Shown here: in pieces, positions 25,252 through 45,268 of the stretch
Layout of the letters: each line of letters starts with the position of its first letter
Position numbering within the stretch: position 1 is the stretch's first letter
From: Glycomyces harbinensis
GTDB lineage: Bacteria > Actinomycetota > Actinomycetes > Mycobacteriales > Micromonosporaceae
Direction: 5' to 3'
DNA length: 64,000 nucleotides
NCBI RefSeq assembly: GCF_900101745.1
Contig: NZ_FNAD01000006.1
Span: forward strand, 62,001 to 126,000
Translations under genes and position numbers: made by a program
Notes under the pieces: model-generated
Told to the model about the DNA's origin: nothing
The model's database searches: none
The model's input: only the letters and a program-made list of their open reading frames with translations

Positions 25252-25273
25252 TGTCGCACCCGGCCTTTAGGGT
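25252..25273 (+). promoter_or_regulatory. Promoter of DUF4132 gene 1 (TGTCGCACCC-N6-TAGGGT)
   Basis: TGTCGCACCC (25252-25261) and TAGGGT (25268-25273) are 6 bp apart, and the ATG at 25281 is 7 bp after the -10, so transcription is probably leaderless. The same module recurs with identical spacing before the other three DUF4132 genes. Confidence 0.65.
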
Positions 25274-25280
25274 GGCCCGC

Positions 25281-28200
25281 ATGACCAACCCCACCGATGC
25301 CACGGATCTGCCCGACGAAGACCTGCTCGACTTCCCGAAATCCTGGGAACGGCTGGTCAAACCCACGCGGACCACCGGGAAGCCCCACAAGGTCAGGCTC
25401 GACGCCGCGAACGGGCGGCGCCGCCTCACCGCCGAGACCGCATGGCTCGACCAGGCCCTGGACCCGTCCCGGCACGAGCAGTTCCTCCCCTCCCTGCGGG
25501 CGCTGCTCGCCGGGGAGCCCGACCCGCTCGGCGCCGCCGCCGCCATGGCGATGCTCAACGGCAAGATCGGCTACGACGCCGACCCGGCCCGACCGCTCCT
25601 GCATCTCTGGATCGCCGAGCACGGCCTCACCTTCGCCGCACGGGCCCTGGCCGAGTACCTCACCCTGTACGCGGGGTGGGTCTCGCAGCGTCCCATCGAA
25701 CTCCAGCGCATGGAACTCAGCTGGGGCACCTGGCACCGTTCGGTCAGCAGCGGCTCCATGCTCGGCGACATGCGGGCGCTGCTCGCGGCCGCGGCGGACG
25801 ACGCGTACGCCGCCGTCGTCGCGGCCCTGGCCGGCCACCGCGCCACCGCCGCCCAGCGGTTCGCGGTGACCCTCCTCGTCCCCGACGAGCGCGACTGGGC
25901 CGACGAAGTGTGCGCCGAGCACCTTCAGGAGAACGCCGACTACTGGGCCACCGCGGCCCTGGTGAGCGAGGCGGTCACCACCACCGGACAGCTTGCCGCA
26001 CTGGGGCTCTCCGTCCTGTCGGACGACTACCACACCTCCGCCATCGTCGCCGGTCTGGTCCGCCGACTCGGCACCGACGCCGTTCCGGTGCTCGCCGCCA
26101 GCGTCGGCTGGGCCTACCAAGCGGGCGACGTCAAGACCTGCCACCAGGCCCTCTCCGTGCTGCCCTCCGACGAGGCCATGGCGTACTTCGCCGACCACCT
26201 CGGCGAGCCCGGGATCTTCGCCTTCGCGATGGAGGCCGCGAAGCGATTCCCGCTGCGCACGCTGCACACCGTCGCCGCCCGCCTGCCCGGGGCCGACGCC
26301 GAAGGCCGCAAGCGCCTCGCCGCCCTCGTCCACGCCGACCCGGTCCTCCGGGCCGCGCTGGCGCACCTGGACGCCGATACCCGCGACCGCGTCGCGCCGC
26401 TGTTCGAAGCCAGCGCGCGCCATCCCGAAGCCGACCCCGCCGACCTGCCCGAACTGCTCGTCGCGCCGCCGTGGACCGTCAAGGCCCCCAAGGTGAAGGC
26501 CGTGGTCGTCGAAGGCCTCGTCCCGCCCGCGATCAACCGCGTCGTGTGGGCCGACGGCGAGCCCGAGGCGTGGTCGGAGGTCGGCTACGACGTCGCGGAG
26601 AAGCGGACGGAGGAACGCTGGCGCGTGATCGCCGAGCGGTTCGCCGACGGCGAGCTCGGCCCGAACCAGGGCCTGCGCTTCCTGGTCGACGCGCCCCGGG
26701 ACATCGCCGCGCCGCTCGCCGGCAGATGGAATGCCGAGGGCCTGGACGACTGGATCGCCATGTCCTACCTCAAGAAGCTCCTCTCACGCTTCGGCGAGGC
26801 CGTGTCCGAACAGGTCGCCGTCGGCGCCGCGACCCACGCGAGCCTGCGCGAAGTCCTGGTCCCCGTCGCGAACCTCGAGGCCGCCCGGCTCATGGCCGAC
26901 GGCTTCGCGCGCCTCAAAACCGTGCGCGAGACGGCGGTCGCCTGGTTCGACCGCCACGGCCCCGACGCCGCCGCGCTCCTCATCCCCGACGCCCTCGGCA
27001 AGGCCAAGCGGCGACGCGCCTCCGCAGAGGAGGCGCTGTACCACCTCGCGGACGAGCACGGGCCCGACGTCGTGCAAGGGGCCGCGGCGCAGTACGGCGA
27101 GGATGCCGCGGCCGCGGTCCGCGCCCTGATCGGCACCGAGCGGTCCGCCCCGCTCCGCGTGAAGATCCCCAAGCCCGCGGCCTGGGCCGCGCCGGCGCTG
27201 CTGCCGCAGGTGCTCCTCAAGGACGGCGATCGGGCGCTGCCGCAGGACGCGGTCCGCCACCTCGTCACCGTGCTCGCCCTCGGCGGCCCCGACCACCCGT
27301 ACGCGGGCGTCGACGTCGTCGCCGAGGCCTGCGACCGCGACTCGCTCAACCGCTTCTCGCTGGCCCTGTTCGACCTGTGGACCGCCGCGGGCTCGCCCGG
27401 CGAGGACCGCTGGGCCGTCACCCAGCTCGTGCACTTCGCCGACGACCACACCGTCCGCACCCTCGCGCCGCTCGTGGCGAAATGGCCGGGGGAGAACCAG
27501 CACCACCGGGCCGTCCTGGGCCTGAAGGTGCTGGGCGCCATCGGCACCGAGCCGGCGATGCGGGCCGTCCAGAACATCGCGGCGAAGGCGAAGTTCGACG
27601 CGATCCGCTGGGCGGCCCACGGGCAGGTCAAGGCCATCGCCGCGGACCTGGGCCTGACCGCCGACCAGCTCGCCGACCGCCTCGTGCCCGACTTCGGGCT
27701 CGGCGCCGAAGGCTCCCTGCGGTTCGACTACGGCCCCCGGACCTTCACCGTGGCCTTCGACGAGCAGCTGAAGCCGTACGTCACCGACGACGCGGGCAAG
27801 CCCCGCAAGACCCTCCCCAAGCCCGGCGCGAAGGACGACCCCGACCTCGCCGAGGACGCCTACCGGCGCTTCACCGCTCTGAAGAAGGAACTGCGCGCCG
27901 TCGCCGCCGACCTCGTGAAGCGGCTCGAATCCGCGATGATCCACGGCCGCACCTGGACCGCCGCGGAGTTCCGGCGGCTGTTCGCCGAGCACGCGCTCGC
28001 GGGCCACCTCGCGCGCCGCCTCGTGTGGCTCGCCGAGCACGGCGGCGAGCGGACCGCCTACCGCATCGCCGAGGACGGCTCCCTCGGCGACGCCGACGAC
28101 GAGGCGTTCGCGCTCCACGACGAGGCCGTCGTCCGCCTCGCGCATCCGATCCACTTGGGACCGTCCGTCGACGCGTGGGCCGAGCTGTTCGCCGACTACG

Positions 28201-28604
28201 AGATCCTCCAGCCGTTCGACCAGCTCGCGCGGCCCGTCATGGCCTTCACCGACGAGGAGCTGAAGACCGGCGTCCTCACCCGCTTCCAGGGCGCCACCGT
28301 CGACATCGGCCACATCCTCGGCATGACGAGCCGCGGCTGGCACCGCGCCGCACCGGAGGACGCCGGAATGGAGCCCGGCATCGCCTACACGTTCCCCGGC
28401 GGCGGCTGCGTCAGCGTCCGCCTCGATCCGGGCGTCTACACCGGATCGGTCCGCGAGTACGACCGCCAGACCCTCGAGACCGTGCGCCTCGCGGCGGTCG
28501 AGGAGTACTACCACGCGCCCTCCGGCGCCGTCCCCGAGAGCATCGACCCGGTGGCCGCCTCCGAGGCCCTCAGCGGCCTCGCCCGCCTCACCGGCACCGC
28601 ATAG
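25281..28604 (+). CDS. DUF4132 (YehI/MolR-like) large protein 1
   Basis: A 1107-residue soluble protein. The long N-terminal and central part is alpha-helical and alanine-rich, resembling HEAT-like repeats, with a conserved AWFDRHG segment near residue 555. The C-terminal DUF4132 region starts after LPKPGAKDD (about 850) and carries LARRLVWLAE, LAHPIH and DYEILQPFDQLARP (about 972). No catalytic motif is recognised. The ATG at 25281 is chosen over one 51 bp upstream because it lies at leaderless distance from the promoter. It is most similar by eye to gene 2. E. coli YehI and MolR belong to the same family; their function is not established. It is probably a scaffold or sensor of the MoxR-VWA system at 38659-45268. 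Confidence 0.85.
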   Translation: MTNPTDATDLPDEDLLDFPKSWERLVKPTRTTGKPHKVRLDAANGRRRLTAETAWLDQALDPSRHEQFLPSLRALLAGEPDPLGAAAAMAMLNGKIGYDADPARPLLHLWIAEHGLTFAARALAEYLTLYAGWVSQRPIELQRMELSWGTWHRSVSSGSMLGDMRALLAAAADDAYAAVVAALAGHRATAAQRFAVTLLVPDERDWADEVCAEHLQENADYWATAALVSEAVTTTGQLAALGLSVLSDDYHTSAIVAGLVRRLGTDAVPVLAASVGWAYQAGDVKTCHQALSVLPSDEAMAYFADHLGEPGIFAFAMEAAKRFPLRTLHTVAARLPGADAEGRKRLAALVHADPVLRAALAHLDADTRDRVAPLFEASARHPEADPADLPELLVAPPWTVKAPKVKAVVVEGLVPPAINRVVWADGEPEAWSEVGYDVAEKRTEERWRVIAERFADGELGPNQGLRFLVDAPRDIAAPLAGRWNAEGLDDWIAMSYLKKLLSRFGEAVSEQVAVGAATHASLREVLVPVANLEAARLMADGFARLKTVRETAVAWFDRHGPDAAALLIPDALGKAKRRRASAEEALYHLADEHGPDVVQGAAAQYGEDAAAAVRALIGTERSAPLRVKIPKPAAWAAPALLPQVLLKDGDRALPQDAVRHLVTVLALGGPDHPYAGVDVVAEACDRDSLNRFSLALFDLWTAAGSPGEDRWAVTQLVHFADDHTVRTLAPLVAKWPGENQHHRAVLGLKVLGAIGTEPAMRAVQNIAAKAKFDAIRWAAHGQVKAIAADLGLTADQLADRLVPDFGLGAEGSLRFDYGPRTFTVAFDEQLKPYVTDDAGKPRKTLPKPGAKDDPDLAEDAYRRFTALKKELRAVAADLVKRLESAMIHGRTWTAAEFRRLFAEHALAGHLARRLVWLAEHGGERTAYRIAEDGSLGDADDEAFALHDEAVVRLAHPIHLGPSVDAWAELFADYEILQPFDQLARPVMAFTDEELKTGVLTRFQGATVDIGHILGMTSRGWHRAAPEDAGMEPGIAYTFPGGGCVSVRLDPGVYTGSVREYDRQTLETVRLAAVEEYYHAPSGAVPESIDPVAASEALSGLARLTGTA

Positions 28605-28610
28605 GAACGC

Positions 28611-28654
28611 GGGGGATGTCGTACCCGGGCCCTATCCTCGGAGCGACATCCCCC
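28611..28654 (+). promoter_or_regulatory. Promoter of DUF4132 gene 2 with flanking 11-bp dyad
   Basis: TGTCGTACCC (28617-28626), 6 bp, TATCCT (28633-28638). An 11-bp perfect inverted repeat GGGGGATGTCG (28611-28621)/CGACATCCCCC (28644-28654) encloses the -10, with its left arm overlapping the upstream element and its right arm near the expected transcription start. Confidence 0.65.
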
Positions 28655-28674
28655 CGGCGGCATGAAGGACGCGC

Positions 28675-31600
28675 ATGACTGACACCGTTGCACCCCGAGA
28701 AGACCGGCTGGTCGTCCCCGAAGCATGGCTGGACGGACTCCTCCCGTTCCGCGGCCGCCGCACCGGCCCCCCGGTCGAACTCGACCCCGACGCCCCCGAG
28801 CGGCTCCGCGGCCTCGCCAAAGCGCACGACGCCGACCTGCGCGCCGCACTGGCCCAGCCCGACAACCAGGACTTCGCCGCCGCGGGCCTGCGCCACCTCG
28901 ACGGCGGGCTCGACGCCTACGGCGCCGGCGTCGTCGCCGTCCTGCTGCGCGGCTCCGACCGGCACAAGTCCCCTTCGATGCTGCGACCCGAGCTGGACGC
29001 CTGGGTCCTCGAACACGGCCTGGCGTTCGCCCTCACCGCCTCGCTCGCGGCCCTGCAGGTGAACCCGTGGAACCTCTACCAGCGCGGCAAGGCGATCGAC
29101 ATCGCGCAGCGCAAACTCGCGGTCGTGCGCCTCGGCCACGTCGGCGCCCTCTTCCACGAAGTCCAGCAAGGCGTCAAAGCCCTGCGCGGCCTCATCGCGG
29201 CAGCCGACGAGGCCGAGTACGCGGCGGTGGTCGCCGCGGCCGCCGCGTTCCGGACCGGCCCCACCGAGCGCTTCCTCGTCGGCCTCCTGCTCCCCGAGCA
29301 GCGGGAGTGGGTCGACGAGGTCTGCCGCGAATACAAGGACCTGGACGGCTACTACACCGACAAGATCCTGTGGGAGTTCGTCTCCACCTCCGAGCAGCTG
29401 ACCGCGGCGGGGCTGTCGAAGCTCGAGCGGTGGGAGGCCGGCACCCACCTGACGGGCACGCTCCTGCACAACCTCGGCGCCGCGAGCCTGCCCGTCTTCA
29501 CCGCGACCCTGCGCCAGCAGGTCGACGGAGACGGCCGCGCCAACCTGCTCGAAGCCGTCGGCCTCATCCCCGGAGACGAGCCGATGTCCTACCTCGTCGG
29601 CAACCTCGCCGAACCCGGCGTGTACCGGGCCGCCGCGAGCGCCGCCGCGCGCTTCCCCCGCCGCGCCCTGCGCGCCATCGCCGCGGCCGACGCCGCCCTC
29701 GCCCCCGAGCTGCGGCCGCGCCTGGCCTCGCTCGCCGCGCTCGTCCCCGAAGCGGTCCGCGCCGCGCACCCCGACCGCGCCGCGATCGAAGCACTCCTCG
29801 CCTGCTCATCGGTTCCCGAAGCGGCCGTTGACGACCTGCCGACACTACTGACCTCCCCGCCCTGGACCAAGAAGCGGCCCAAGACCAAGCCGGTCGTCCT
29901 CGACGGCCTCGCGGCGCCAGACGGCATCGCCGTCACCTGGGCCGAGGGCGAGCGGGAACGCTGGTCCGTCCCCGAGGCGAACTACTTCCGCAACCACACC
30001 GAAGACGACTGGCACCATTCCATCCGACGAGCCGGCAAGCACCACGACGGCCGCATGTACGCGATCGCCCTGGCCTACGCGCCGTTGGCGATCGCCGCCG
30101 AGGCCCTGGAGAAGTGGGACGGCGCGTTCGCCCCGTACACCTCCAGCGACATCAACGTGGTCCTCTCGCGCTTCGAAGCCGACGTCGCGCAGCGCATCCT
30201 GGTGCACCTGCGCAAGAACGCCGCCGACCACCGCGCGCTCGTGCCGATCCTCAGCCTCGACGCGGCCCGCCTCGCCGCCGACTGGTTCGACCGCCTCAAG
30301 TCCGCGCGCGCCAGCGCCGTCGCCTGGTTCGACCGCCACGGCACCGAGGGCGCCCGCATGCTCGTCCCCGACGCCCTCGGCGCCGACAAGCGGGCCCGCC
30401 GGGTCGCCGAAGGCGCGCTGGCGTTCATCGCCGCTCGCCAGGGCGACGCGGTGGTCGAGGCCGCCGCCGCGTCCTACGGAGACGACGCCGCGGCGGCGAT
30501 CCGGGACCTGCTCGACGGCGACCCGCTCGAACCGCGCGGCGTGAAGCTCCCCAAGCCCGGCGCGTGGGCCGACCCGGCGATGCTGCCGCAGGTCCTGGCC
30601 GGCGACCGCGCGCTCCCGGCCGAGTCGGTGCGCCACCTCATCACCGTGCTCGCCCTGACGACCCCCGAATACCCGTACGCGGGACTCGACGTCGTCGCCG
30701 AGGCCTGCGACCGCGCGTCGCTCGCCCGGTTCAGCCGGGCCCTGTTCCAGGTGTGGCTCGCGGAGGGCGGGCCGTCGAAGGACGGCTGGGCGCTCACCCA
30801 GCTCGCCCATTTCGCCGACGACGACACCGTGCGCCTGCTCGCCCCGAAGATCCGCGAATGGCCGGGCCTGAGCCAGCACAAGCGGGCCGTCAACGGCCTG
30901 GGCGTCCTCGGCGCGATCGGCACCGAGGAGGCCCTGCGGGCCATCCAGGGCATCGCCGAGAAGGTGAAGTTCAAGGCGCTCAAGCAGGAGGCGGGCGTCC
31001 AGATCGAGACGATCGCCGCAGAACTCGGCCTGAGCCGCGACCAGCTCGCCGACCGCCTCGTCCCCGGCTTCGGGCTCGGCGACGAGGCCCTGGTCCTCGA
31101 CTACGGTCCGCGCAAGTTCACCGTGGTCTTCGACGAGCAGCTCAAGCCGTACGTCACCGACGAGGACGGCAAGCCCCGCAAGAGCCTCCCCAAGCCCGGC
31201 GCCAAGGACGACGCCGCGGTCGCCGATGCCGCCTACCAGCGCTTCTCACTGCTGAAGAAGGAGCTGCGGACCGCCGCCTCGGACCAGGTCTCGCGGCTCG
31301 AGGCGGCGATGGTCAACGCCCGCACCTGGAATGCCGACGAGTTCCGCCGCTTCTTCGCCGAGCACCCCCTCGTCAAGCACCTGGCCCGCCGCCTCGTGTG
31401 GCTCGCCGAGGCCGACGGCGCCCGCACCGGCTTCCGCATCGCCGAGGACGGCAGCTACAGCGACGCCGCCGACGACGCGTTCACCCTGCCCGAGAACGCC
31501 GTCGTACGCCTCGCCCATCCGATCCACATGGAGCCCAAGGAAGTCGACGCGTGGGCGGAAGTCCTCGCCGACTACGAGATCCTCCAGCCCTTCGACCAGC

Positions 31601-31989
31601 TTGCGCGGCCGGTCATGGCGTTCACCGAGGACGAGCTCGCCACCGGGCACCTGACCCGCTTCGAGGACAAGCAGGTCGAGGTCGGCCGCCTCCTGGGCCT
31701 CACCAAGCGCGGCTGGCGCCGCGCCGCGCCCGAGGACGGCGGCGTCGAACCGGGCATCCACTACCCGCTCCCCAGCGGCGGGTACGTCACCATCGCGCTC
31801 AGCCCGGGCATCTGGGTCGGCATGATCGCCGAGAACCCGGTCCAGAAACTCGAGAGCGTCCACATCGGGCACAGCGAGGTCTACTGGTACGACCGATCGC
31901 GCGAGACCCAGCGGATGCCCGAGGGCATCGACCCGCTGACCGCCTCCGAGATCCTGGTCGCGCTGGAGCGCCTCACCGCCGGCTCCTGA
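28675..31989 (+). CDS. DUF4132 (YehI/MolR-like) large protein 2
   Basis: A 1104-residue paralogue of gene 1 with the same layout: helical repeats, AWFDRHG near residue 550, LPKPGAKDD near 840, and the C-terminal DUF4132 block with LARRLVWLAE, LAHPIH and DYEILQPFDQLARP (about 966). Long stretches are near-identical to gene 1 (for example FDEQLKPYVTD), so these two are the most recent duplicates. The N-terminal 100 residues differ much more. The ATG at 28675 follows an AAGGA site. No membrane segment or signal peptide is seen. Role unknown; the partner genes suggest a chaperone-like or conflict system driven by the MoxR ATPase. Confidence 0.85.
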   Translation: MTDTVAPREDRLVVPEAWLDGLLPFRGRRTGPPVELDPDAPERLRGLAKAHDADLRAALAQPDNQDFAAAGLRHLDGGLDAYGAGVVAVLLRGSDRHKSPSMLRPELDAWVLEHGLAFALTASLAALQVNPWNLYQRGKAIDIAQRKLAVVRLGHVGALFHEVQQGVKALRGLIAAADEAEYAAVVAAAAAFRTGPTERFLVGLLLPEQREWVDEVCREYKDLDGYYTDKILWEFVSTSEQLTAAGLSKLERWEAGTHLTGTLLHNLGAASLPVFTATLRQQVDGDGRANLLEAVGLIPGDEPMSYLVGNLAEPGVYRAAASAAARFPRRALRAIAAADAALAPELRPRLASLAALVPEAVRAAHPDRAAIEALLACSSVPEAAVDDLPTLLTSPPWTKKRPKTKPVVLDGLAAPDGIAVTWAEGERERWSVPEANYFRNHTEDDWHHSIRRAGKHHDGRMYAIALAYAPLAIAAEALEKWDGAFAPYTSSDINVVLSRFEADVAQRILVHLRKNAADHRALVPILSLDAARLAADWFDRLKSARASAVAWFDRHGTEGARMLVPDALGADKRARRVAEGALAFIAARQGDAVVEAAAASYGDDAAAAIRDLLDGDPLEPRGVKLPKPGAWADPAMLPQVLAGDRALPAESVRHLITVLALTTPEYPYAGLDVVAEACDRASLARFSRALFQVWLAEGGPSKDGWALTQLAHFADDDTVRLLAPKIREWPGLSQHKRAVNGLGVLGAIGTEEALRAIQGIAEKVKFKALKQEAGVQIETIAAELGLSRDQLADRLVPGFGLGDEALVLDYGPRKFTVVFDEQLKPYVTDEDGKPRKSLPKPGAKDDAAVADAAYQRFSLLKKELRTAASDQVSRLEAAMVNARTWNADEFRRFFAEHPLVKHLARRLVWLAEADGARTGFRIAEDGSYSDAADDAFTLPENAVVRLAHPIHMEPKEVDAWAEVLADYEILQPFDQLARPVMAFTEDELATGHLTRFEDKQVEVGRLLGLTKRGWRRAAPEDGGVEPGIHYPLPSGGYVTIALSPGIWVGMIAENPVQKLESVHIGHSEVYWYDRSRETQRMPEGIDPLTASEILVALERLTAGS

Positions 31990-31997
31990 GTCCCGCC

Positions 31998-32039
31998 GGG
32001 GATGTCGCACCCAGCGCTTATGCTCGATGCGACATCCCC
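31998..32039 (+). promoter_or_regulatory. Promoter of DUF4132 gene 3 with flanking 11-bp dyad
   Basis: TGTCGCACCC (32003-32012), 6 bp, TATGCT (32019-32024). A perfect 11-bp inverted repeat GGGGATGTCGC (31998-32008)/GCGACATCCCC (32029-32039) encloses the -10, as at gene 2. Confidence 0.65.
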
Positions 32040-32058
32040 TTACGCGCGAAGGAAGACG

Positions 32059-35000: not shown

Positions 35001-35259
35001 CGGCGCCCTCTTCAACCTGACCCGCAAGGGCTGGCGCCCGGTCCGCAAGGAGGGCTCGGGCTGGACGTCCGGCCTGTCGCGGCGCCTGGCCGGCGGGGGA
35101 GCGGTCGAGGTCGACCTGTCCCCGGGCTTCGGCGGCGGCTACCTCTTCGACGCCGAGGAAGTCCAAGTCCTGCAATCGGTCCGCTTCCCGACCGGAGCCG
35201 ACCCGGTGGCGCTCTCCGAGGTCATCGCGACGCTGGCGCGGGTCGCGAAGAGCGAGTGA
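32059..35259 (+). CDS. DUF4132 (YehI/MolR-like) large protein 3
   Basis: A 1066-residue, more diverged paralogue. The central segment reads AWLARHG instead of AWFDRHG, and the pre-domain linker is LPKPDADDD. The C-terminal signature DYEILQPFDQLARP is intact (about residue 944), with LAHPVLLG before it. The N-terminus is unlike genes 1 and 2 and starts with an acidic stretch (DFEADEDVFERW). The ATG at 32059 follows GAAGGAAG; an in-frame ATG at 32002 lies inside the promoter and is rejected. It is ended by a hairpin at 35268-35290, so it is probably transcribed alone. Confidence 0.83.
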   Translation: MTEAVAAQQDQSRVPDFEADEDVFERWTLYADQDGSDAPHLRPPTGRGRPSATPVDPPRDYMVDLWHRIGLDERRESFRTAIESPTTDPAIGAAMRSYLDGEPDPLGAAAVFEIAFAVGAKLWGERRYVQYDAWHGEHGPEFAACAVLQQSAVRVIGARFRQPLHHYNNGSDEPAVEFAPTIPAGGAWGRGMETQRVREMLAGVPEPEYRRYRELFEPLGRNHRQRHARAFVMPTEQDWVDQACNEFPEWESRAWGVEEQLIASVTSIDQLTAAGITILDEYNRYERPIRSLLESCGPDAVPLLVETLNRGTEPRGRGTLKTMLATLPHDAAVEYLLTGWVGEETAHLARLAAERFPRRTVRAVVRLADGAAAAQRSRYAHLTTAVPALAEAVAAAEPEVRQAIDRLVHLDDAPPETPDVPAFLANPPWTLKRPKVKRTVIEVAPVDAAVLRWRDGERETWAEGGKIVDETRRRLAEGEAEAVPEVLAALAKAPRHHRALPPIGGVEAARIAADWLVRLRSTRASVTAWLARHGTDAAAWLTPDAIGPAGKTQRAAEAVLRHLARAHGDAAVLAAAAGYGAEAAVTAILTADPLDLHGRKAPRVPEWVEPVLGMPVLLAGRGHRLPRAAVGHLVGAMALDSLAIPYAGLDAAKEHCDAASLSEFSWAVFESWLIADAPGKDSWAFTQLARFADAGTVERLEALIGPWTGAGLVKRAQTALEVLGAVDAEEALLAVHRLRRTVDSKALKESAADQIDLIAAGMGLDVEQLADSLVPDFELGEDATLELGYGSRRFKVGFDERLRPFVIDERGKVRRSLPKPDADDDPEAAAEAAKRFERLTRGLKSVATEQVPRLERAMVDGRTWTLPEFRRHLVDHALMWHLAKRLVWRAESAAGAVVFRLAEDRTCTGADEDALALPEDARIRLAHPVLLGDALPVWAEILADYEILQPFDQLARPVHAPTGAEASAGRLTRFEGGKGGTGALFNLTRKGWRPVRKEGSGWTSGLSRRLAGGGAVEVDLSPGFGGGYLFDAEEVQVLQSVRFPTGADPVALSEVIATLARVAKSE

Positions 35260-35267
35260 GACCGGCG

Positions 35268-35290
35268 CGCCCCGGCCGACGGCCGGGGCG
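35268..35290 (+). terminator. Terminator after DUF4132 gene 3
   Basis: A 10-bp perfect stem CGCCCCGGCC/GGCCGGGGCG with a GAC loop, followed by TCTTCG, lies 9 bp after the stop. Confidence 0.75.
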
Positions 35291-35326
35291 TCTTCGTACA
35301 TGCGCGCCCCACGGGTCTGCATGCGA

Positions 35327-35348
35327 TGTCGCACCCGGACTCTATGCT
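35327..35348 (+). promoter_or_regulatory. Promoter of DUF4132 gene 4 and the MoxR operon
   Basis: TGTCGCACCC (35327-35336), 6 bp, TATGCT (35343-35348), identical in spacing to the three upstream copies. The right-hand dyad arm seen at genes 2 and 3 is degenerate here. Confidence 0.65.
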
Positions 35349-35382
35349 CGTGTGGACGCGACCGCCTCATGAAAAGAAGTAC

Positions 35383-38300: not shown

Positions 38301-38649
38301 CCTCCACCGCTTCACCGGCCGCACCGCCGTCTTCGGCGCCATGCGCGAGGTCATGACCTGGAAGTTCCTCTACTGGGGCGGGAAGCAGCAGTCCGTCACC
38401 CACCGCCGCGGCACCCACCTGTTCGACCGCGAACTGCCCGGCGGCGCCCGCCTCATGGCCGAAATCGACCCCAGCCCCGACCTCGCCGAACCCGATCCGC
38501 AAGGGCGCCACCGCGTCCTGGCGATCTGGTTCTCGACCACCAAGAACCGCCGAAGCGACGTCCCGACCCTGCGCGGCGACGCCGTCGACCCCGTCACCGT
38601 CTCCGAGATCCTGGCCGGGCTGTCCCGCGCCACCGGACTCCTCACCTAG
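35383..38649 (+). CDS. DUF4132 (YehI/MolR-like) large protein 4
   Basis: A 1088-residue paralogue with the common layout: helical repeats, DWFDRHGPH near residue 535, the linker KPPKPGVRDD, and the C-terminal DUF4132 block with LARRLLWLGE, LAHPALLG and DYEVLQPFDQLARP (about 947). It is clearly diverged from genes 1 and 2. The ATG at 35383 follows GAAAAGAAG; an in-frame ATG at 35326 lies inside the promoter. The MoxR-type ATPase starts 9 bp after its stop, so this copy heads the operon with the ATPase, DUF5682 and VWA genes and may be the core partner, the other three being variants. Confidence 0.84.
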   Translation: MTEHVVPQEDRFDPPPEWRQLALPRRGDGFRHAYRIGVFEDLATLTERHQDVVDEVLSHELTDPALAERAREHLGGRPDPAGAAVAAIILRGAEHGISDSPAGIGKDRLVLSHAAIRESLDSWVAEHGPAFAVAAAIEDLAATSTTHRQKGHFLRPVVPMYFRNKINVWAPGDGPLAAVRALVAAADDAEHARICARAAEHRDTPLKRLAASLLVPDRADWAAEVLTEGVLPRESTLVERLTWSLVSTPAHLKLIGRKAFEPYYVSREAVAEAIAGLGRAALPVIEKSLQYKLIAGPARGELYNGLAVFPADEAMSLLLDRGAEPRAAAAAAEAASRFPARAARLTAARLPTATPLERARLAALVAASPACLTAPGLTGAERDALAALTADTGLPEAEPERLPAILVSPSWNERRKTKAPGAIEGLTAPDPVIVGRPGEHERALALEPNVIEWDDEFWGDDDHFAGYRDGLNLGDSGLAQLARKGPAIADDVAEAVRRAPWHGRALTPIRSAAAAEIAAHWLVRIKNGRSAALDWFDRHGPHAATLLVPHAFGPKAYQRTTARAGLRLVAWRHGTGAVLRAVEPHGPEAVAAVDAVLDPDLTQPLLSAPNARPWADPDHLPPVLLKDRSAVLGRRAVINLFDVLSQWAPRVPYPGVALAAAGLDRESLARFSLALAEMWISAGTPDGDLWAVEQLALFGGADAARLIEEHAPRWHARHPEWTDIALETLTALPAEDAFDPLHRLSRTAKQPKVREAAARRCAIVAERLGDAPEALADRRAPRLGLDEALTLDFGPRSFRVDVDDRLNLSVTDASGKTRAKPPKPGVRDDPALAAASQARFRGLAKDLAAEITVQSGRLEDAMHTGRVWEPAEFAGLAAHPVIGSLARRLLWLGETDTDPRCFRLAEDGSLADADDKPFELGPDARVRLAHPALLGPDLARWTEVFADYEVLQPFDQLARPAMVLTPEEAESGVLHRFTGRTAVFGAMREVMTWKFLYWGGKQQSVTHRRGTHLFDRELPGGARLMAEIDPSPDLAEPDPQGRHRVLAIWFSTTKNRRSDVPTLRGDAVDPVTVSEILAGLSRATGLLT

Positions 38650-38658
38650 AAGGCCGCC

Positions 38659-39750
38659 ATGACCGACACCGCCGCCACACCCGAACCGCGCCTCCAGCGA
38701 CCGCCCGCCGAGCGCCGCTACGCCTCAGAGCTCGCCAAGCTCGCCGCCGAGGACGACGCGCCCCGTCCGCCCGGCTGGGCCCTCAGCCTCCAGGCCGCCC
38801 GCACCTTCGTCGTCGGCGACGAGTCGCGCGGCATCGCGAAGAAGTTCGTCGGCGACCCCTCGCTCATCGACCGCGCGCTCGTGACCCTCGCGACCAACCG
38901 CGGCCTCATGCTCGTCGGCGAGCCCGGCACCGCCAAGTCGCTCCTGTCCGAGCTCATCGCCGCCGCCGTCTCCGGCGACTCCACCCTCACCATCCAGGGC
39001 GGCGCCTCCACCACCGAGGACCAGATCGCCTACTCCTGGAACTACTCCCTGCTCGTCTCCGAGGGCCCCACGCAGCGCGCACTCGTGCCCGCGCCGCTCC
39101 TGCGGGGCATGGCCGAGGGCCGCGTCGTCCGCTTCGAGGAGATCACCCGCTGCCCCCTCGAAGTCCAGGACTCCCTGCTGTCGCCCCTGTCGGACCGGGT
39201 GCTCGCCATCCCCGAACTCGAAGCCGACCCGATGGTCTTCGCCCGCGAAGGCTTCAACATCATCGCCACGGCCAACACCCGCGACCGCGGCGTCAACGAG
39301 ATGAGCGCGGCCCTCAAGCGCCGCTTCAACTTCGAGACCGTCTTCCCCATCGCCGACTTCAAGACCGAACTCGACCTGGTCGAGAACGAGGCCGCCGCCG
39401 CGCTCGCGCGCTCCGGCGTGCCCGCGCCCCCGGACCGGGACGTCCTCGAAGTGCTCGTGCGGGTCTTCCGCGACCTCCGCTCCGGCGACCAGGGCAGCGG
39501 GCGCCCGCAGGCGGTCATGTCCACCGCCGAGGCCGTGTCCGTGGCCCACGCCGTGGGCATCAAGGCCTGGTACCTGCGCGGCGGCGAGGCCGACGCGGGC
39601 GACATCGTCGACTGCATGGCCGGCGCCGCCGCCAAGGACAACGCCGACGACCTCGCGCGCCTGCGCCGCTACCTGGAGCAGAAGGCCCCCAAGCGCAAAG
39701 GCCCGCACTGGCAGTCGCTCTACCAGGCCCGGAACCTGCTGCCCGGATGA
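38659..39750 (+). CDS. MoxR-type AAA+ ATPase (YehL-like)
   Basis: A 363-residue AAA+ protein of the MoxR/RavA group. Walker A is VGEPGTAKSLL (about residues 86-96), Walker B is VVRFEEITRCPLEVQDSLL (Glu-Glu, about 156-174), sensor 1 is IIATANTRDRG (about 202), and the arginine finger region is ALKRRFNFE. MoxR ATPases remodel or activate protein complexes together with von Willebrand A partners. One is encoded two genes downstream, which supports a working ATPase-VWA pair. It overlaps the DUF5682 gene by 4 bp (ATGA). The E. coli counterpart in the same gene set is YehL, role unknown. Confidence 0.9.
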   Translation: MTDTAATPEPRLQRPPAERRYASELAKLAAEDDAPRPPGWALSLQAARTFVVGDESRGIAKKFVGDPSLIDRALVTLATNRGLMLVGEPGTAKSLLSELIAAAVSGDSTLTIQGGASTTEDQIAYSWNYSLLVSEGPTQRALVPAPLLRGMAEGRVVRFEEITRCPLEVQDSLLSPLSDRVLAIPELEADPMVFAREGFNIIATANTRDRGVNEMSAALKRRFNFETVFPIADFKTELDLVENEAAAALARSGVPAPPDRDVLEVLVRVFRDLRSGDQGSGRPQAVMSTAEAVSVAHAVGIKAWYLRGGEADAGDIVDCMAGAAAKDNADDLARLRRYLEQKAPKRKGPHWQSLYQARNLLPG

Positions 39751-42029
39751 TCGAGCGACTCCACGTCCAGGGCGTGCGGCACCACTCGCCCGCCTGCGCC
39801 CGCCTGGTCGCCGAGCGGATCGAGCGGCTGCGGCCCGCCGCGGTGCTCATCGAGGGCCCCGCGGACTTCAACGACCGGCTCGGCGAGCTGGCGCTCGAAC
39901 ACGAGCTGCCCGTCGCCATCTACTCCTACGCCAGCGCCGACCTCGCCGTCCGCCGCTCGTGGACCCCGCTGTGCGACTACTCGCCCGAGTGGATCGCGCT
40001 GAGCGAGGGCCGCCGTGTAGGCGCCGACGTCCGGTTCATCGACTTCCCGGCCTGGCACCAGTCCTTCGAGGGCGTCGAGAACCGCTACTCGGACGCCGAG
40101 CGCCGCTACGCCGAAGCGGCCGAACGGCTCTGCCGCGCCTTCTCCGTCGACAACACCGACGCGCTGTGGGACCACCTCGTCGAGATCGCCGAACCCGACG
40201 GCCTCGCCGAACGCCTGGACGAGTACTTCGACCTCGTGCGCGGCGAATCCGACGCGAGCGAGTCCGACACCGCCCGCGAGGCCTATATGGCCCAGTGGAT
40301 CCGGGCCGCGCTCGCCGAGACCGACGGCCCGGTCCTGGTGGTGTGCGGCGGCTTCCACGCCCCCGCGCTGCGCCGCCTCGCCGAGTCCGGGCCGGCCGAG
40401 GCCCCCGAGGTCCCGCTCCCCGCCGAAGGCACGGAGACCGGCGGCTTCCTGGTGCCCTACTCGTTCCGGCGCCTCGACTCGTTCGCCGGCTACCAGTCCG
40501 GGATGCCCTCGCCGGAGTACTACCAGCGGCTCTGGGAGGACGGGCCCGACGCCGCGGCCGGCGGCCTCGTCGAGCGCATCACCGCGCGCCTGCGCCGCAA
40601 GGGACTCCACGTCTCCACTTCGGACCTCATCGGCGCGCGCAGCCTCACCGACGGGCTCGCCCGCCTCCGGGGCCACTCCCGGCCCGGTCGCACCGACCTC
40701 CTCGACGGCCTCGCCAGCGCCCTCATCAGCGACGACCTCGAACAGCCGCTGCCGTGGACGAGGCGCGGAACCCTCACGGCCGGAACGCATCCGGTCGTGG
40801 TCGAGATGACCGCCGCCCTCACCGGCGAGCGCGTCGGGCGCCTCCACCCCGAGACGCCCGCCCCGCCGCTCGTGGCCGACGCCGAGGCCGAGATCGAACG
40901 CCTCGGCCTCGACCGGGACGGCACCCTCACGCTCGACCTCACCAAGCCGAAGGACCTCGCGCGCAGCCGCGTCCTGCACTGCCTGCGGCTGCTGAAGATC
41001 CCCGGAGTGCGCCGCGGCGCGGGCCCGAACGCCGGCGCCGACGTCACCGCCGAGGAGCAGTGGTCCCTGCAGCCGCACGAGGACCGCCTGCCGTCGCTCA
41101 TCGAGGCGGGCGCGCTCGGCGCGACCCTCGGCGACGCCGCCCAGACCGTGCTCGAACAGCGCGCCGACAGCGACGGCGCCCTGGACGTGCTGGCCGCCAT
41201 CCTCTTCGACGCGGCCCTGTGCGGCCGGGCCCGCCTGACCGACCGGCTCGGCCAGGCCGTCGAGTCGGCCGTCGCCGACAGCGGCGACGTCGCCGCCGTC
41301 GGCCGGGCCCTCGCGGTGGCCCTGGCGCTGTGGCGCCACGACCACCTGTTCGGCACCGCCGGGAGCGACCTGTACACCGCGGTCGTCTCGTCGGGGTGCG
41401 ACCGCATCCTGTGGCTCGTCGAGGGCTTCCACGCGCCGCCGGGACCGGCCGACCTCGGCCGGCTCGCGGCCCTGTGCGCGCTGCGGGACGCGGTGCGCCA
41501 CGCGCCCGGACTGGCGCCGCCGCCCCAGTCGGTGACCCGCGCGGCCGACCGGATCGCACTCGACCCGCAGGCCCCGCCGGACCTGCGCGGCGGCGCCCTC
41601 GGCCTCGCCTGGGCCCTCGGCGCGCCCGCCGACGCGGCGGCCGCGGCCGACGGCGCCTCGGGACCCGACCAGCTCGGCGACTGGCTCGCCGGACTGTTCT
41701 CCCTCGCCCGCGAAGAGGTCATCGCCGAGGAGGAAGGCGTCATCGGCGCCGTCGACGACCTGGTCGCCGACCTCACCGACGCCGAGTTCTTCATCGCCCT
41801 GCCCGCGATGCGCCAGGCCTTCGCGATGTTCCCCCCGCGCGAGCGGGGCCTCATCGCCCAGCGCGTGGTGGAGCTGCGCGGCGGCGGCGACGCCCGCGAC
41901 CTGACCGCGCGCCTCCACGTCGACCCGCTCACCGTCGCGGCCTCCATGGCCCTCGAATCGCGCGTCGAGGACGTCCTCGCGCGTGAGAACCTCCTCTTCC
42001 CCGTCCCCACGAGCAGAGCGGAGTCCTGA
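39747..42029 (+). CDS. DUF5682 family protein (YehM-like)
   Basis: A 760-residue protein, very near the length recalled for E. coli YehM. The N-terminal 250 residues carry GVRHHSPACARLV, LIEGPADFNDR and VVCGGFHAPALRRL. The two Gly-x-x-His motifs and the Glu recall TraB/EreA/ChaN-type metal-dependent enzymes, so a hydrolase activity is possible but unproven. The rest is helical and rich in Ala, Leu and Asp. The ATG at 39747 overlaps the ATPase stop (ATGA); its own stop overlaps the VWA start (TGATG). This tight coupling implies a fixed stoichiometric complex of ATPase, DUF5682 and VWA proteins. Confidence 0.85.
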   Translation: MIERLHVQGVRHHSPACARLVAERIERLRPAAVLIEGPADFNDRLGELALEHELPVAIYSYASADLAVRRSWTPLCDYSPEWIALSEGRRVGADVRFIDFPAWHQSFEGVENRYSDAERRYAEAAERLCRAFSVDNTDALWDHLVEIAEPDGLAERLDEYFDLVRGESDASESDTAREAYMAQWIRAALAETDGPVLVVCGGFHAPALRRLAESGPAEAPEVPLPAEGTETGGFLVPYSFRRLDSFAGYQSGMPSPEYYQRLWEDGPDAAAGGLVERITARLRRKGLHVSTSDLIGARSLTDGLARLRGHSRPGRTDLLDGLASALISDDLEQPLPWTRRGTLTAGTHPVVVEMTAALTGERVGRLHPETPAPPLVADAEAEIERLGLDRDGTLTLDLTKPKDLARSRVLHCLRLLKIPGVRRGAGPNAGADVTAEEQWSLQPHEDRLPSLIEAGALGATLGDAAQTVLEQRADSDGALDVLAAILFDAALCGRARLTDRLGQAVESAVADSGDVAAVGRALAVALALWRHDHLFGTAGSDLYTAVVSSGCDRILWLVEGFHAPPGPADLGRLAALCALRDAVRHAPGLAPPPQSVTRAADRIALDPQAPPDLRGGALGLAWALGAPADAAAAADGASGPDQLGDWLAGLFSLAREEVIAEEEGVIGAVDDLVADLTDAEFFIALPAMRQAFAMFPPRERGLIAQRVVELRGGGDARDLTARLHVDPLTVAASMALESRVEDVLARENLLFPVPTSRAES

Positions 42030-43165
42030 TGGGCGCCGACCTTGAACGCTGGCGCCTCATCCTCGGGCCCGCCGCCGAAGGCGCCACCGGCGGCCTCGGC
42101 GAGGAGAACGCCGGGCGCGACGCCGCCCTCGACTGGCTCTACGGCCGCGACGACGACCTCGGCAAGCGCGGCGTCCGCCGCGGCGGCGCGCGCTCGGGCG
42201 AACGCGGCGCCGGCGACGAGCCCTCGATCCTCACCACCGTCGACTGGCTCGACGGCATCCACCGGCTCTTCCCCAAGGAGACCATCGAGCGGCTCGAGCG
42301 CGACGCCGTGGAGCGCTACGAGATCCACGACGTGCTCACCGACCCCGAAGTGCTCGCGCGCATCGAACCGAACCCGGCCCTGCTCAAAGCGGTCCTGCGC
42401 ACCAAGCACCTGATGAACCCGCAGGTCCTCGAAGCGGCCCGCCGCATCATCGAGGAGGTGGTGCGCCAGCTGGTCGAGAAGCTCTCGGTGCAGGTCCGCA
42501 CCGTCTTCACCGGCAGCCGCAACCGCCGCCCCAGCCAGCACCGCCGCGCCCGCGACTTCGACCTCAAGCGGACCCTGCGCGCCAACCTCAAGCACTACCG
42601 GCCCGAGGACCAGCGCGTCGCGATCGAGCGGCCCCACTTCCACTCGCGCACGTCCAAACGCCTGGAGCAGTGGCAGATGGTGCTCGTGGTCGACCAGTCC
42701 GGGTCGATGGCCGGCTCGGTGATCCACTCGGCCGTCACCGCCGCCTGCCTGTACGCCCTCCCCGGCCTGAAGACCCACCTGGTCGCCTTCGACACCGCCG
42801 TGGTCGACCTGACCTCCGAAGTGGACGACCCGGTCGAACTGCTCATGAAGGTCCAGCTCGGCGGCGGCACCGACATCTCCAGCGCCGTCGAATACGCCGC
42901 CGGGCTCATCGAGAACCCCCGCCGCTCGATCGTCGCCCTCATCACCGACTTCTACGAGGGCGGCAACCCGTCCCGGCTCGTCCACACCACGAAGCAGCTG
43001 TGCCAGCAGGGAACCCAGTTCCTCGGCCTCGCCGCCCTCGACGAGGACGCCAACCCCAACTACGACCGCGAACTCGCCGGGCGCATGGCCGACGTCGGCG
43101 CCCACATCGGCGCCATGACCCCCTCCAACCTGGTCGAATTCGTAGCGGAAAGGCTCGGCACATGA
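42029..43165 (+). CDS. von Willebrand factor A domain protein (YehP-like)
   Basis: A 378-residue cytosolic protein. The N-terminal half is charged and helical; the C-terminal half is a VWA domain with an intact MIDAS metal site: DQSGSMAGS (about residue 222), the threonine in GGGTDIS (about 280) and ITDFYEGG (about 305). VWA proteins of this kind act as adaptors or targets of MoxR ATPases, and the gene is coupled to the ATPase operon through a TGATG overlap with the DUF5682 stop. No membrane anchor or signal peptide is visible, unlike BatA/BatB VWA proteins. Confidence 0.9.
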   Translation: MGADLERWRLILGPAAEGATGGLGEENAGRDAALDWLYGRDDDLGKRGVRRGGARSGERGAGDEPSILTTVDWLDGIHRLFPKETIERLERDAVERYEIHDVLTDPEVLARIEPNPALLKAVLRTKHLMNPQVLEAARRIIEEVVRQLVEKLSVQVRTVFTGSRNRRPSQHRRARDFDLKRTLRANLKHYRPEDQRVAIERPHFHSRTSKRLEQWQMVLVVDQSGSMAGSVIHSAVTAACLYALPGLKTHLVAFDTAVVDLTSEVDDPVELLMKVQLGGGTDISSAVEYAAGLIENPRRSIVALITDFYEGGNPSRLVHTTKQLCQQGTQFLGLAALDEDANPNYDRELAGRMADVGAHIGAMTPSNLVEFVAERLGT

Positions 43166-43178
43166 GGCCCGCGCCCCT

Positions 43179-43243
43179 AGGGGGTGTCTGGTGATGTCGA
43201 ACGGCCCGCATCCAGCCTCGCCCGACATCACCAGACACCCCCT
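43179..43243. repeat. 21-bp perfect inverted repeat element
   Basis: The 21-base arm at 43179-43199 (beginning AGGGGGTGTCTGG) is repeated exactly as its complement at 43223-43243 around a 23-base centre. It lies between the VWA and SWIM genes. It may be a strong transcription terminator or attenuator, or a MITE-like palindromic repeat; no T-run and no flanking target duplication were seen. Confidence 0.8.
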
Positions 43244-43279
43244 GGCCCCGCCCGCCTTCCCCGAACCGGAGTGAACACC

Positions 43280-45268
43280 GTGTCCAGAAGCGACCTCCTC
43301 GCCCTCACCGCCGACGCCCTCGCGGCGCTCGCCAACCGCGGCCTGGTCAAGCGCGCCGCCAAAGACCTCGACGCCGGCGCCGTCCCGGTCCTCGACCTCG
43401 CCGCCGACGGCGCCCTCACCGCCGCCTTCCCCGACGGCGCCACCGCGGTCCTGCCCGCCACCGGCGGCCTCGACACCGCCACCTGCACCTGCGGCGCCCC
43501 CGGCAAGTGCCGCCACCGCGTCGGCGCCGTCCTCGCCTACCAGCGCGGCGCCGCGGCCCCCGCCGACGCCGAAGCGGCCCAGGCCGACAGCGCACCGACC
43601 GACACCGCCCCGCCCGAACCGCAGGCGCTCGCCACCCCGGCCTCGATCACCGACGAGCAGCTGCGCGAAGCGCTCGGCCCGCACGCGATCAAAGCCGCCG
43701 AGCAGACCCGCCGCGCCGGCTACACCGCCCGCCTCGTCTGGCCCGACCCCGACCGGCACGCCACCGCCGAACTCCCCGCCGCCACCGTCAAGTTCCTCGT
43801 CCCCGGCGACGTCGGCTACGCCCACACCGACGCCACCGGCCCCGCCCGCGCCGCCGCCGTCGTCCTCGCCGTCTGGGCCTTCCGCGAGGGCGAAGCCGAC
43901 CGCTCCACCACCGTCAGCGTCGGCGGCACCGACCCCGAAGGCAGCCTCGCCGAAGCCCTCCACCTCACCGAGCAGGTCCTCCTGGACGGCGCCGACGGCG
44001 CCGACGCGGTCCTGCGCGCCGCCCTCCAGCGCGAGTCCAAGGCCCTCACCCGCCGCCGCGCCCACTGGCCCGCCGGCGCCGTGAACGACCTCATCGACCA
44101 GCTCCAGCGCTACGAGGACCGCTCCGCCGCCTACGACCCGCAGCGACTCGCCGCCCTCCTCACCGAGATCCCCGCCCGCGCCAACGCCGCCGGGCACCCC
44201 GGCGGCACCCCCGCCGCCCAGGTCCTCGGCAGCGAAGAGGCCGACGCGACCCCGCTGACCCTCGTCCGCCTCACCGGCCTGGGCGCCCGCATCGGCACCG
44301 ACGGCGACCGCCGCACCCTGGAGCTCTACTTCGCCCAGCCCGAGACCGGCATGGTCCTCGCCATCCAGCGCGACTGGCCCGTCCCCGCCGACCCGAAGAA
44401 CGCGGCCGAAGCCCTCACCGGCGCCGAACTCGCCGGCCGCCGCCTCGCCGGATGCAAGATCGGCGCTCTGGCGGGCGGGAACACCGTCACCGAGGCCGCC
44501 ACCCGCACCGCCGCCCGCGCGCTCAAGCTCGGCACCGGCCGCCTCGCCAAGACCCAGGTGCTCCCGCTCGGCCTCGCCTGGAACGACCTCCCGGCCTCGC
44601 TGCGCGCCACCGACCTCGACGCCCTCGCCGCCGAACTCGCCGACCGGCCGCCCTCGCTCATCAGGCCCCGCGTCGCCGCCGAGTCCCTGCGCGTCATCGC
44701 CGTCGCCTCCTGCGAACTCCTCGGCTACGACCCCGCCTCGCAGCGCCTCGAAGCGATCGTCACCGCCCCCGGCGGCGGCACCGCGCGCCTGCGCATCGAG
44801 CACCGCTCCGCCACCCCCGGCGCCCTCGAGGCCGCCGAGCGCGCCCTGACCGGCGAGCCCCTCGCCGTCGCCGGGCACGTGCGGCGCCACCGCGGCGAGC
44901 TCATCGTCGAGCCCACCGCGATCCTCACCGCCGACGGCCCCGTCGTCCCCGACCTCGCCCCCGGCGACGACAGCGCCGAGCTCGCCGCCGGCGGCGACCG
45001 GCCCGTGGGCGACCCCGTCTCGGCCGCGATCGAAGGCGCGATCACCGCCTGCGCGGACCTCGCGCATCAGGGCCTGCGCCGCTCCCGCGAGCCCTCGCGC
45101 GTCCGCGTCGAAGCCGTCGCGGCCTCGCTGCAACGCGTCGGCCTCCAAAGGGCCGCAACCGATTTCGTCCAACTGTCCAAAGCGTTGGGGGAGGACGACC
45201 AGGCCGCGAAATGCGCGGCCTGGACCGCCGCCGCCGTCCGGATCGCGGTCACCGCTGAGCTACACTGA
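43280..45268 (+). CDS. SWIM zinc-finger protein (YehQ-like)
   Basis: A 662-residue protein with an N-terminal SWIM zinc finger, CTCGAPGKCRH (C-x-C-x5-C-x-H, about residues 69-79), predicted to bind DNA or protein. The remaining 550 residues are alanine-rich and without a known domain. The GTG at 43280 is chosen because GGAG at 43268-43271 fits; the frame upstream runs through the inverted repeat. E. coli YehQ is the equivalent SWIM protein in the yeh set. The 114-bp gap with a hairpin before it suggests lower or separately controlled expression compared with the VWA gene. Confidence 0.85.
   Translation: MSRSDLLALTADALAALANRGLVKRAAKDLDAGAVPVLDLAADGALTAAFPDGATAVLPATGGLDTATCTCGAPGKCRHRVGAVLAYQRGAAAPADAEAAQADSAPTDTAPPEPQALATPASITDEQLREALGPHAIKAAEQTRRAGYTARLVWPDPDRHATAELPAATVKFLVPGDVGYAHTDATGPARAAAVVLAVWAFREGEADRSTTVSVGGTDPEGSLAEALHLTEQVLLDGADGADAVLRAALQRESKALTRRRAHWPAGAVNDLIDQLQRYEDRSAAYDPQRLAALLTEIPARANAAGHPGGTPAAQVLGSEEADATPLTLVRLTGLGARIGTDGDRRTLELYFAQPETGMVLAIQRDWPVPADPKNAAEALTGAELAGRRLAGCKIGALAGGNTVTEAATRTAARALKLGTGRLAKTQVLPLGLAWNDLPASLRATDLDALAAELADRPPSLIRPRVAAESLRVIAVASCELLGYDPASQRLEAIVTAPGGGTARLRIEHRSATPGALEAAERALTGEPLAVAGHVRRHRGELIVEPTAILTADGPVVPDLAPGDDSAELAAGGDRPVGDPVSAAIEGAITACADLAHQGLRRSREPSRVRVEAVAASLQRVGLQRAATDFVQLSKALGEDDQAAKCAAWTAAAVRIAVTAELH

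Follow-up and report, generated by a model that had tools for sequence, protein, structure and literature searches.

The subject of this analysis is a 64,000-nucleotide stretch of the Glycomyces harbinensis genome (contig NZ_FNAD01000006.1, positions 62,001 to 126,000 of the forward strand; below, the window) and a run of eight genes on its plus strand, at 25230-45268, in which four tandem genes for DUF4132 paralogues (D1 to D4) are followed by genes for a MoxR ATPase, a DUF5682 protein, a CoxE-type VWA protein and a SWIM protein. We put at about an even chance the reading that these genes encode one remodelling machine with exchangeable DUF4132 recognition arms, whose likeliest role would be an immune-like surveillance of foreign or damaged macromolecules from a fixed chromosomal address. 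The cluster as such was already known as a YehL-type MoxR neighbourhood. New here are tandem DUF4132 arrays of variable size, a contrast in evolutionary rate between the N- and C-terminal parts of their products, and classes of N-terminal alleles in Escherichia coli; we found no mention of these in the literature searched. An initial annotation of the window, made from sequence alone, had proposed variable recognition subunits served by one ATPase machine, an interpretation that our results support in part.

The same five families stand in the same order and on the same strand in the yeh locus of E. coli, and the match to yehI, yehL, yehM, yehP and yehQ proposed in the initial annotation was borne out by BLASTP identities of 28-63%. 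The window MoxR protein is 63% identical to YehL over 356 amino acids (aa), the VWA protein 56% to YehP, the DUF5682 protein 40% to YehM and the SWIM protein 32% to YehQ over 580 aa, and the main segments of the DUF4132 proteins are 28-34% identical to YehI. YehL gives its name to one of seven named MoxR subfamilies, according to passages of PMC3893208. The K-12 order is yehF (WGR), yehH (an annotated pseudogene, DUF4132-like), yehI, yehK, yehL, yehM, yehP and yehQ. Here yehF and yehH have the look of fragments of a single DUF4132 gene, and K-12, with a first DUF4132 gene that carries a pseudogene annotation, represents the locus poorly. The two loci differ in that yehK is inserted in E. coli, in that Glycomyces has 3-6 DUF4132 copies plus orphans, and in that the first copies of E. 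coli have a WGR domain at the N terminus, which Pfam does not find in any of the four window proteins. In line with the statement that these families lack an established function, the literature searched, mostly without subscription papers, yielded no functional study of the YehI-Q set.

Evolutionary rates within Glycomyces point to a variable and a constant part of the DUF4132 proteins. In four species pairs, DUF4132 orthologues are 66-91% identical, compared with 95-99% for MoxR, and their dN/dS is 0.30-0.77, compared with 0.02-0.18 for MoxR (counted after Nei-Gojobori, a procedure open to bias from GC-rich codon use; the values compared come from the same genomes). Flanking open reading frames (ORFs) in the same pairs are 72-99% identical with dN/dS of 0.10-0.48, so that their ranges touch those of DUF4132. 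The contrast lies within the protein as well. Among 40 nearest-neighbour pairs, orphans included, median dN/dS was 0.64 for the N half (D2 residues 1-530) and 0.37 for the C half; the N half was faster in 37 pairs and slower in two, and one C value was undefined. The initial annotation's view that the C-terminal block was kept while the N-terminal region diverged thus stands, and E. coli allelic classes agree with it.

To these rates we can add the strain variation of E. coli, for which the block was read at 11 loci, plus K-12 and 55989, in strains taken non-randomly from spread listings. Three tandem DUF4132 genes precede yehK-yehL in F2_81, AVS0465, TUM2830, S21EC and 23CRST011, that is, in five of the 11 loci other than K-12; the proposed fourfold expansion is one relative to K-12. 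Two DUF4132 genes are present in LR9-2, VTB96815v, 8178, K56-43-un and AR96.3A, with yehI broken in three of them. W10C18 has two DUF4132 genes and the remnant of a deletion that reaches into yehM, and in 55989 (L215, 16001-16873) everything from yehH to yehQ is gone, its place taken by an IS1 that is flanked by a truncated WGR gene and by what is left of yehR. In the two-gene strains the first gene combines a beginning like that of the additional first gene (Da) with a remainder of the type of the gene before yehI (Db), which would be explained by a deletion through their shared WGR start. A resistance transposon insertion in the yeh region of ST131 is reported in a passage of PMC9334617.

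Variation between strains is concentrated in Db, while Da and yehI vary less. Across 10 strains, Db opens with 60 residues of 85-98% identity in the pairs shown, and residues 770-1253 keep 94-98% identity across classes, but residues 96-700 fall into three allelic classes that are only 44-60% identical to one another, one of them shorter than the others (1010 vs about 1260 aa). Within one class, two groups diverge chiefly at residues about 540-660 (36-40% identity there). S21EC was left out of this comparison, its protein accession being the same as that of AVS0465 and TUM2830. For comparison, metG is >99% identical among F2_81, AVS0465 and W10C18, and yehL 98-99% among F2_81, AVS0465 and K-12. 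The Db N half has a dN/dS of 0.18-0.21 and whole-gene dS is raised to 0.66-0.71, so that the classes look like old alleles that are under purifying selection and have been exchanged, not like fresh hypermutation. By DNA matching in 5426 complete E. coli genomes, the Db C-terminal segment is present in 5280. Of the three N-terminal segments, one occurs in 4050, another in 735 (681 at >=80% of the query) and the third in 403; these counts, each a separate total over genomes, sum to 5188, fewer than have the C-terminal segment. A segment of the additional first gene occurs in 1615 of these genomes, yehL in 5171, yehM in 5284 and yehQ in 5300. Discrete classes between near-constant flanks have the appearance of exchangeable recognition parts. 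The alternative for the classes, an unselected import of foreign alleles, is weighed against by the presence of each class in at least 403 genomes. The module genes are near-universal in E. coli, the literature searched gave no known function for the set, and the variability described here turns them into a testable question, namely what the N-terminal classes bind and what use the shared machine makes of it.

The genome to which the window belongs comprises 35 contigs with 6.17 Mb in total. GC content at the third codon position (GC3) is 0.94-0.96 in all eight frames, which marks them as real genes, and with Pfam matches in all eight it confirmed the gene content first read from the sequence. 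D1 (25230-28604; 1124 aa; GC3 0.95) matches PF13569 with E = 4.8e-57 at aa 856-1037; D2 (28675-31989; 1104 aa), D3 (32002-35259; 1085 aa) and D4 (35326-38649; 1107 aa) match it with 2.5e-60, 3.4e-49 and 9.5e-45, respectively. D1 starts at 25230 or, likelier, at 25281, which gives 1107 aa, and D3 likely starts at 32059, which gives 1066 aa. The locus had originally been placed correctly but with a start at 25252, which is out of frame with D1, and the range of 1066-1107 aa given for the four proteins is right only with the shorter starts. The four are 32-49% identical to one another, and their listed genes are 70, 12 and 66 bases apart. D2, D3 and D4 are each preceded by a readable, similar short leader (MSYPGP.., MSHPAL.., MSHPDS..), which is what tandem duplication would leave behind. 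The MoxR AAA+ ATPase of the YehL subfamily (38659-39750; AAA_5, 7.3e-35), the DUF5682 (YehM) protein (39747-42029; PF18934, 1.2e-110) and the VWA (YehP) protein (42029-43165; 378 aa; PF05762, 3.4e-56) are encoded by genes joined by overlaps of one to four bases. The SWIM zinc-finger (YehQ) gene follows at 43184-45268; its product has the motif CTCGAPGKCRH, and its SWIM match (E = 0.0038) is under the Pfam cut-off. No tRNA adjoining the operon was found in the window. Downstream, at 45277-54722, a malic-enzyme-like gene and then an apparent SUF iron-sulphur cluster operon were read by eye.

We then asked how far this arrangement is shared. When named genomes were scanned with a DUF5682 alignment, at least 566 relatives came up. 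We read the loci of the best 80, all actinobacterial; counts from them are consequently not unbiased rates. The order DUF4132-MoxR-DUF5682-VWA-SWIM on one strand was found at 75 of the 80 loci, the closest named locus to that of the window being Glycomyces amatae L075. A DUF4132 gene lies in the stretch at 76 loci, more than 5 kb from MoxR in L087 and L105; of the remaining four, L136 and L152 begin near a contig end, and L110 and L111, both from Actinoplanes, lack DUF4132. Among 296 genomes drawn evenly from the phylum, DUF5682 was present in 21 and DUF4132 in 15 (14 above the cut-off), with both in 12, DUF4132 only in 3, DUF5682 only in 9 and neither in 272 (Fisher odds ratio 121, uncorrected for kinship). 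Of 22 Glycomyces genomes, 20 contain both families and the other two, G307 and G316, lack both. The co-occurrence that the initial annotation had called for as a check is therefore present. In a split subtype, the DUF4132 domain forms an ORF of its own, of 289 aa (L030, 5585-6454) or 360 aa (L031), beside MoxR, DUF5682 and VWA, which suggests that this domain is a separate module associated with the ATPase; L031 (9754-15587) has in addition a 1584-aa protein without a Pfam match and another with a weak SWIM match. Elsewhere, a DUF4132 branch is fused to DUF7737 (L028, 4578-6914; L036, 8094-10664; L035, 5534-10594, here with DUF5724 too), and no MoxR module was found within the 20-kb stretches of L035 and L036. 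L032 (8514-13862) and L033 (7805-15263) have a divergent DUF5682-like protein (PF18934 at about 100 bits, motif CHHSPA) with MoxR and VWA in another gene order.

Within Glycomyces, the number of DUF4132 genes varies and the module behind them is single. In 18 arrays uncut by a contig end, 3, 4, 5 and 6 tandem DUF4132 genes (4, 7, 6 and 1 arrays, respectively) precede one MoxR-DUF5682-VWA-SWIM module; the arrays of G302 and G312, which run into contig ends, are not among these, and the G296 stretch ends within DUF5682. The window genome has one DUF5682 gene and seven DUF4132 genes in all, three of them alone, away from the operon, amid apparently unrelated genes. A DUF4132 tree of 145 rows, or at most 144 genes (L191 and L196 overlap, so that one gene is doubled), contains many old paralogue groups that are common to several species but unevenly present, and one group is an array member in one species and sits at an orphan site in another. 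Eleven rows had been dropped before the tree was built (6 repeats from overlapping stretches and 5 matching <600 aa), the orphan stretch G315:C12:32446-42991 was left out, and the fragment matches G309:C2:316000 and G311:C1:137946 were not counted as genes. In many arrays, though not all, the D4-side copy is the final DUF4132 gene ahead of MoxR. The array keeps its chromosomal position in the four species pairs: its flanks, named by eye, include a pentose-phosphate cluster (three pairs) and a malic enzyme (all four). Gaps of about 1.1 kb occur in two arrays, in G299 after the second of the DUF4132 genes and before the third, in G314 after the last of them and before MoxR. In G297, a DUF4132 pair off the operon contig (C1:225518-229365) groups with two adjacent G296 array genes; from the sequences, a movement of the block between array and orphan sites is possible.

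To relate the variable and constant parts to protein structure, we modelled D2 with AlphaFold2 (pLDDT 90.8, pTM 0.84). The model has an alpha-solenoid up to residue 795 or so and a mixed alpha/beta domain at about 800-1104, in keeping with the large helical component expected from the initial annotation; the search by sequence for solved relatives brought nothing convincing, with best E values of 0.081 for DUF4132 and 0.6 for DUF5682. Structural matches of the model are of HEAT/ARM type, and those to AP, importin, PP2A and Pex8 were taken as generic solenoid likeness. Foldseek returned nothing at E <=0.001 for DUF4132 or DUF5682 against the PDB, nor for DUF4132 against viral models. These features bear on the idea that the DUF4132 proteins are not recognition arms but polymorphic effectors or clients that the ATPase module restrains or activates. 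A variable and a constant part in one MoxR-VWA-linked protein would suit it, as has been proposed for components of ternary conflict systems in passages of PMC7159879. However, the variable part is predicted to be a solenoid, which would be a binding scaffold and not an enzyme domain, it matches no Pfam family up to E 1, and orphan copies sit without the module at their site, so that we consider DUF4132 effectors very unlikely.

The DUF5682 protein may supply the enzymatic activity. Its AlphaFold2 model (pLDDT 86.7) has a C-terminal helical-repeat part, and its N-terminal domain contains the motifs RHHSPxC, LIEGP and GGFH; among 80 relatives, RHHSPxC is present in 80, EGP in 79 and GGFH in 79. 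In four of eight loci with other DUF5682 subtypes (L030, L034, L037 and L038), RHHGP or RHHAP replaces HHSP, and the four proteins have RHH[GA]P, the Glu motif and GA[FW]H. Such His, Glu and His motifs are the signature of the Tiki/TraB/EreA/ChaN superfamily, and the N-terminal domain is, on these motifs, a probable hydrolase of this type. The conserved His-His, Glu and His motifs are accompanied by a weak structural match to EreC and by weak Pfam matches among DUF5682 members (TraB in 6 of 51, ChaN in 3 of 51, best 0.014). On the other hand, DUF5682 differs from the superfamily in its large C-terminal helical-repeat part, and the window protein scores 11.9 bits to TraB, where the cut-off is 26.8. 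Motifs of the other module proteins are conserved as well. The MoxR P-loop (GEPGTAKS in the window) fits GxxxTAKS in 79 of 79 relatives, the VWA DxSGS is found in 77 of 79, and the SWIM CxCxnCxH in 74 of 75; E. coli YehP fits DxSGS only of the three motif patterns. A Walker-B pattern (0 of 79 MoxR) and a VWA Asp pattern (29 of 79) of our own were poor patterns, from which we draw no conclusion.

Put together, the recognition reading would work as follows. Each DUF4132 protein would be a HEAT/ARM-type solenoid whose variable N-terminal part probably binds a target, and several copies per genome would widen the range of targets. The conserved C-terminal part, with the last solenoid turns and the alpha/beta domain, is probably the piece read by the common machine, as its constancy and the split subtype suggest. 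By extension of the known MoxR-VWA principle, the metal site of the VWA protein would grip a peptide that is bound or released, and a MoxR hexamer would remodel the complex. This remodelling may then switch on or load DUF5682, the predicted hydrolase, or move it to the target, with the SWIM protein as a putative partner that binds nucleic acid or protein. If the receptor reading is true, a receptor repertoire would be kept at a fixed chromosomal address, varying in copy number in one phylum and in alleles in another.

A machine of the same composition could instead mature enzymes. In this case MoxR, VWA and DUF5682 would form a chaperone that loads or repairs cofactor enzymes, much like CoxD-CoxE with CO dehydrogenase, and the DUF4132 proteins would be adaptors for different clients. 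This would fit the old name MolR: a 1990 study reportedly named E. coli molR for molybdate use. The window VWA protein is itself of CoxE type, and passages of PMC7159879 and PMC3893208 describe MoxR-VWA pairs that assemble or activate metal enzymes. In data given in PMC4245954, strains with deletions of both molR1 and lepA grow slower (33 vs 26 min), so some cellular role exists, but the molR1 deletion alone is not slower (22 vs 24 min, same source). Moreover, no molybdoenzyme gene is annotated within 27 kb around the K-12 set, and fixed client enzymes would hardly lead one to expect classes of N-terminal alleles with 44-60% identity in a single species. We regard a maturation chaperone as unlikely; even if it were one, the allele classes would show which part selects the client.

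The WGR domain of E. coli raises the further option of a damage-induced chaperone that remodels damaged complexes, in which the WGR of the DUF4132 proteins would touch nucleic acid. WGR is present in three of the four E. coli DUF4132 proteins scanned, with the WGR+DUF4132 architecture in the first and second genes of AVS0465 and the second gene of W10C18. In sections of the respective papers, molR is among LexA-regulated genes (PMC11039860), yehF shows a modest increase in transcript over an SOS time course (PMC11002266), and depletion of DdrO in Deinococcus raises drA0166, a DUF4132 gene, and dr2173, a WGR gene (PMC8533742). Our own scans for LexA boxes did no better than chance, with 10 matches vs 7.7 expected at the E. 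coli locus and 5 vs 4.4 in the window, and the upstream regions of 18 Glycomyces arrays have boxes only with two mismatches and at no constant place. Allelic classes would be unexpected for a general repair factor, and induction by damage is compatible with defence as well. The DNA-damage links fit either a response to damage or a defence that damage sets off. We regard a DNA-damage or stress factor as decidedly unlikely.

Several results weigh against exchangeable recognition arms and their immune-like role. In the pooled Glycomyces DUF4132 pairs, none of 1086 sites was significantly above neutral, and positive selection at single sites was dropped for this reason; significantly conserved sites number 192 of 517 in the N half and 401 of 569 in the C half, so that the N half is either under loose constraint or diversifying, two states that this test cannot separate. 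The Glycomyces rate contrast alone could therefore reflect weak constraint. In E. coli, DUF4132 dN/dS is moderate (0.19-0.32; N halves 0.18-0.28), the C half has the higher value in yehI of F2_81 vs K-12, and the raised dS of the class differences indicates old or imported alleles. Some copies are shortened, 12 of 76 array proteins matching over <1000 aa. L034, L037 and L038 have DUF5682-MoxR-VWA with no DUF4132 in the stretch read, as do the two Actinoplanes loci, and the three orphan genes of the window genome have no adjoining ATPase. The Tiki/EreA fold match and the TraB and ChaN matches of DUF5682 are weak. In PADLOC-DB 2.0.0, searched up to E 0.1, seven proteins were unmatched and MoxR matched once, to an unrelated model (E = 0.02). 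Finally, the locus is chromosomal and non-mobile, and DUF5682 relatives turned up in 31 of the 72,556 plasmid records and in 1 of the 50,697 records from phages. A mobile defence island was accordingly rejected for this locus, given the conserved Glycomyces flanks, the near-universal yehM in E. coli and these few plasmid and phage relatives. The sole match in the phage collection, H32 (MT835988.1, 11286-12758; 27.7% identity), comes from a 14-kb faecal 'Bacteriophage sp.' record that is possibly host DNA.

The absence of positive sites and the shortened copies would also be accounted for if the genes had no special role, being an old family that duplicates and decays under weak constraint, with relaxed N-terminal selection and an occasional import of foreign alleles. 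Broken E. coli genes (yehI in L220, L224 and L225; yehM in L220; yehP in L222), the deletion at L217 and the loss of the block at L215 point the same way. Yet no stop lies within the DUF4132 domain in any listed Glycomyces match, the C half has an omega of 0.37, and the Db N halves are far apart but have the low dN/dS of old alleles kept functional. All three classes are common, and gene order is conserved in two phyla. Mere duplication and decay is, on this evidence, highly improbable.

The recognition reading can be extended, tentatively and with less than even confidence, to the proposal that the YehI-Q set is an undescribed bacterial innate immune system. It would consist of a fixed MoxR-VWA machine, a Tiki/EreA-like effector and a repertoire of DUF4132 solenoid receptors with a constant C-terminal docking piece and a target-binding part that Glycomyces diversifies through tandem duplication and E. 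coli through discrete allelic classes. If this were true, about 97% of complete E. coli genomes, going by yehM, would hold a so far unrecognised system.

Among known systems that come close, the MoxR-vWA ternary conflict systems, in the sections of PMC7159879 that describe them, share with the window set a MoxR and a vWA protein, a further conserved component and a fast-diverging part. The window has the MoxR and vWA couple with the MIDAS motifs DQSGS, GGGTD and ITDF, and its P-loop type, GxxxTAKS, is frequent in FtsH and beta-propeller ternary systems (PMC7159879, in part). The set differs in having DUF5682, DUF4132 and SWIM instead of VMAP, iSTAND, FtsH or a propeller: none of these families is among the window Pfam matches up to E 1, although distant or undescribed versions could escape such a search. 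The vWA-fused beta-propeller of subsystem 4 is absent from the VWA protein, which has VWA-type families only, with bpMoxR at 22.3 bits (cut-off 27), and SWIM, TraB and WGR do not occur in the main text of PMC7159879. In MoxR-VWA pairs generally, the vWA site captures a partner peptide and ATP is used to alter the conformation of the partner (PMC7159879, in part). CoxD-CoxE, RavA-ViaA and other such pairs resemble the window proteins in their AAA+ MoxR and DxSGS VWA, of the VWA_CoxE family, but they have known or proposed dedicated clients, whereas the window operon adds DUF5682 and a variable solenoid family. Type I restriction specificity subunits are built of constant parts around variable recognition parts. 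We know of no sequence relation between them and DUF4132; by analogy, however, the two share the layout of constant and variable parts, allelic at a fixed chromosomal address.

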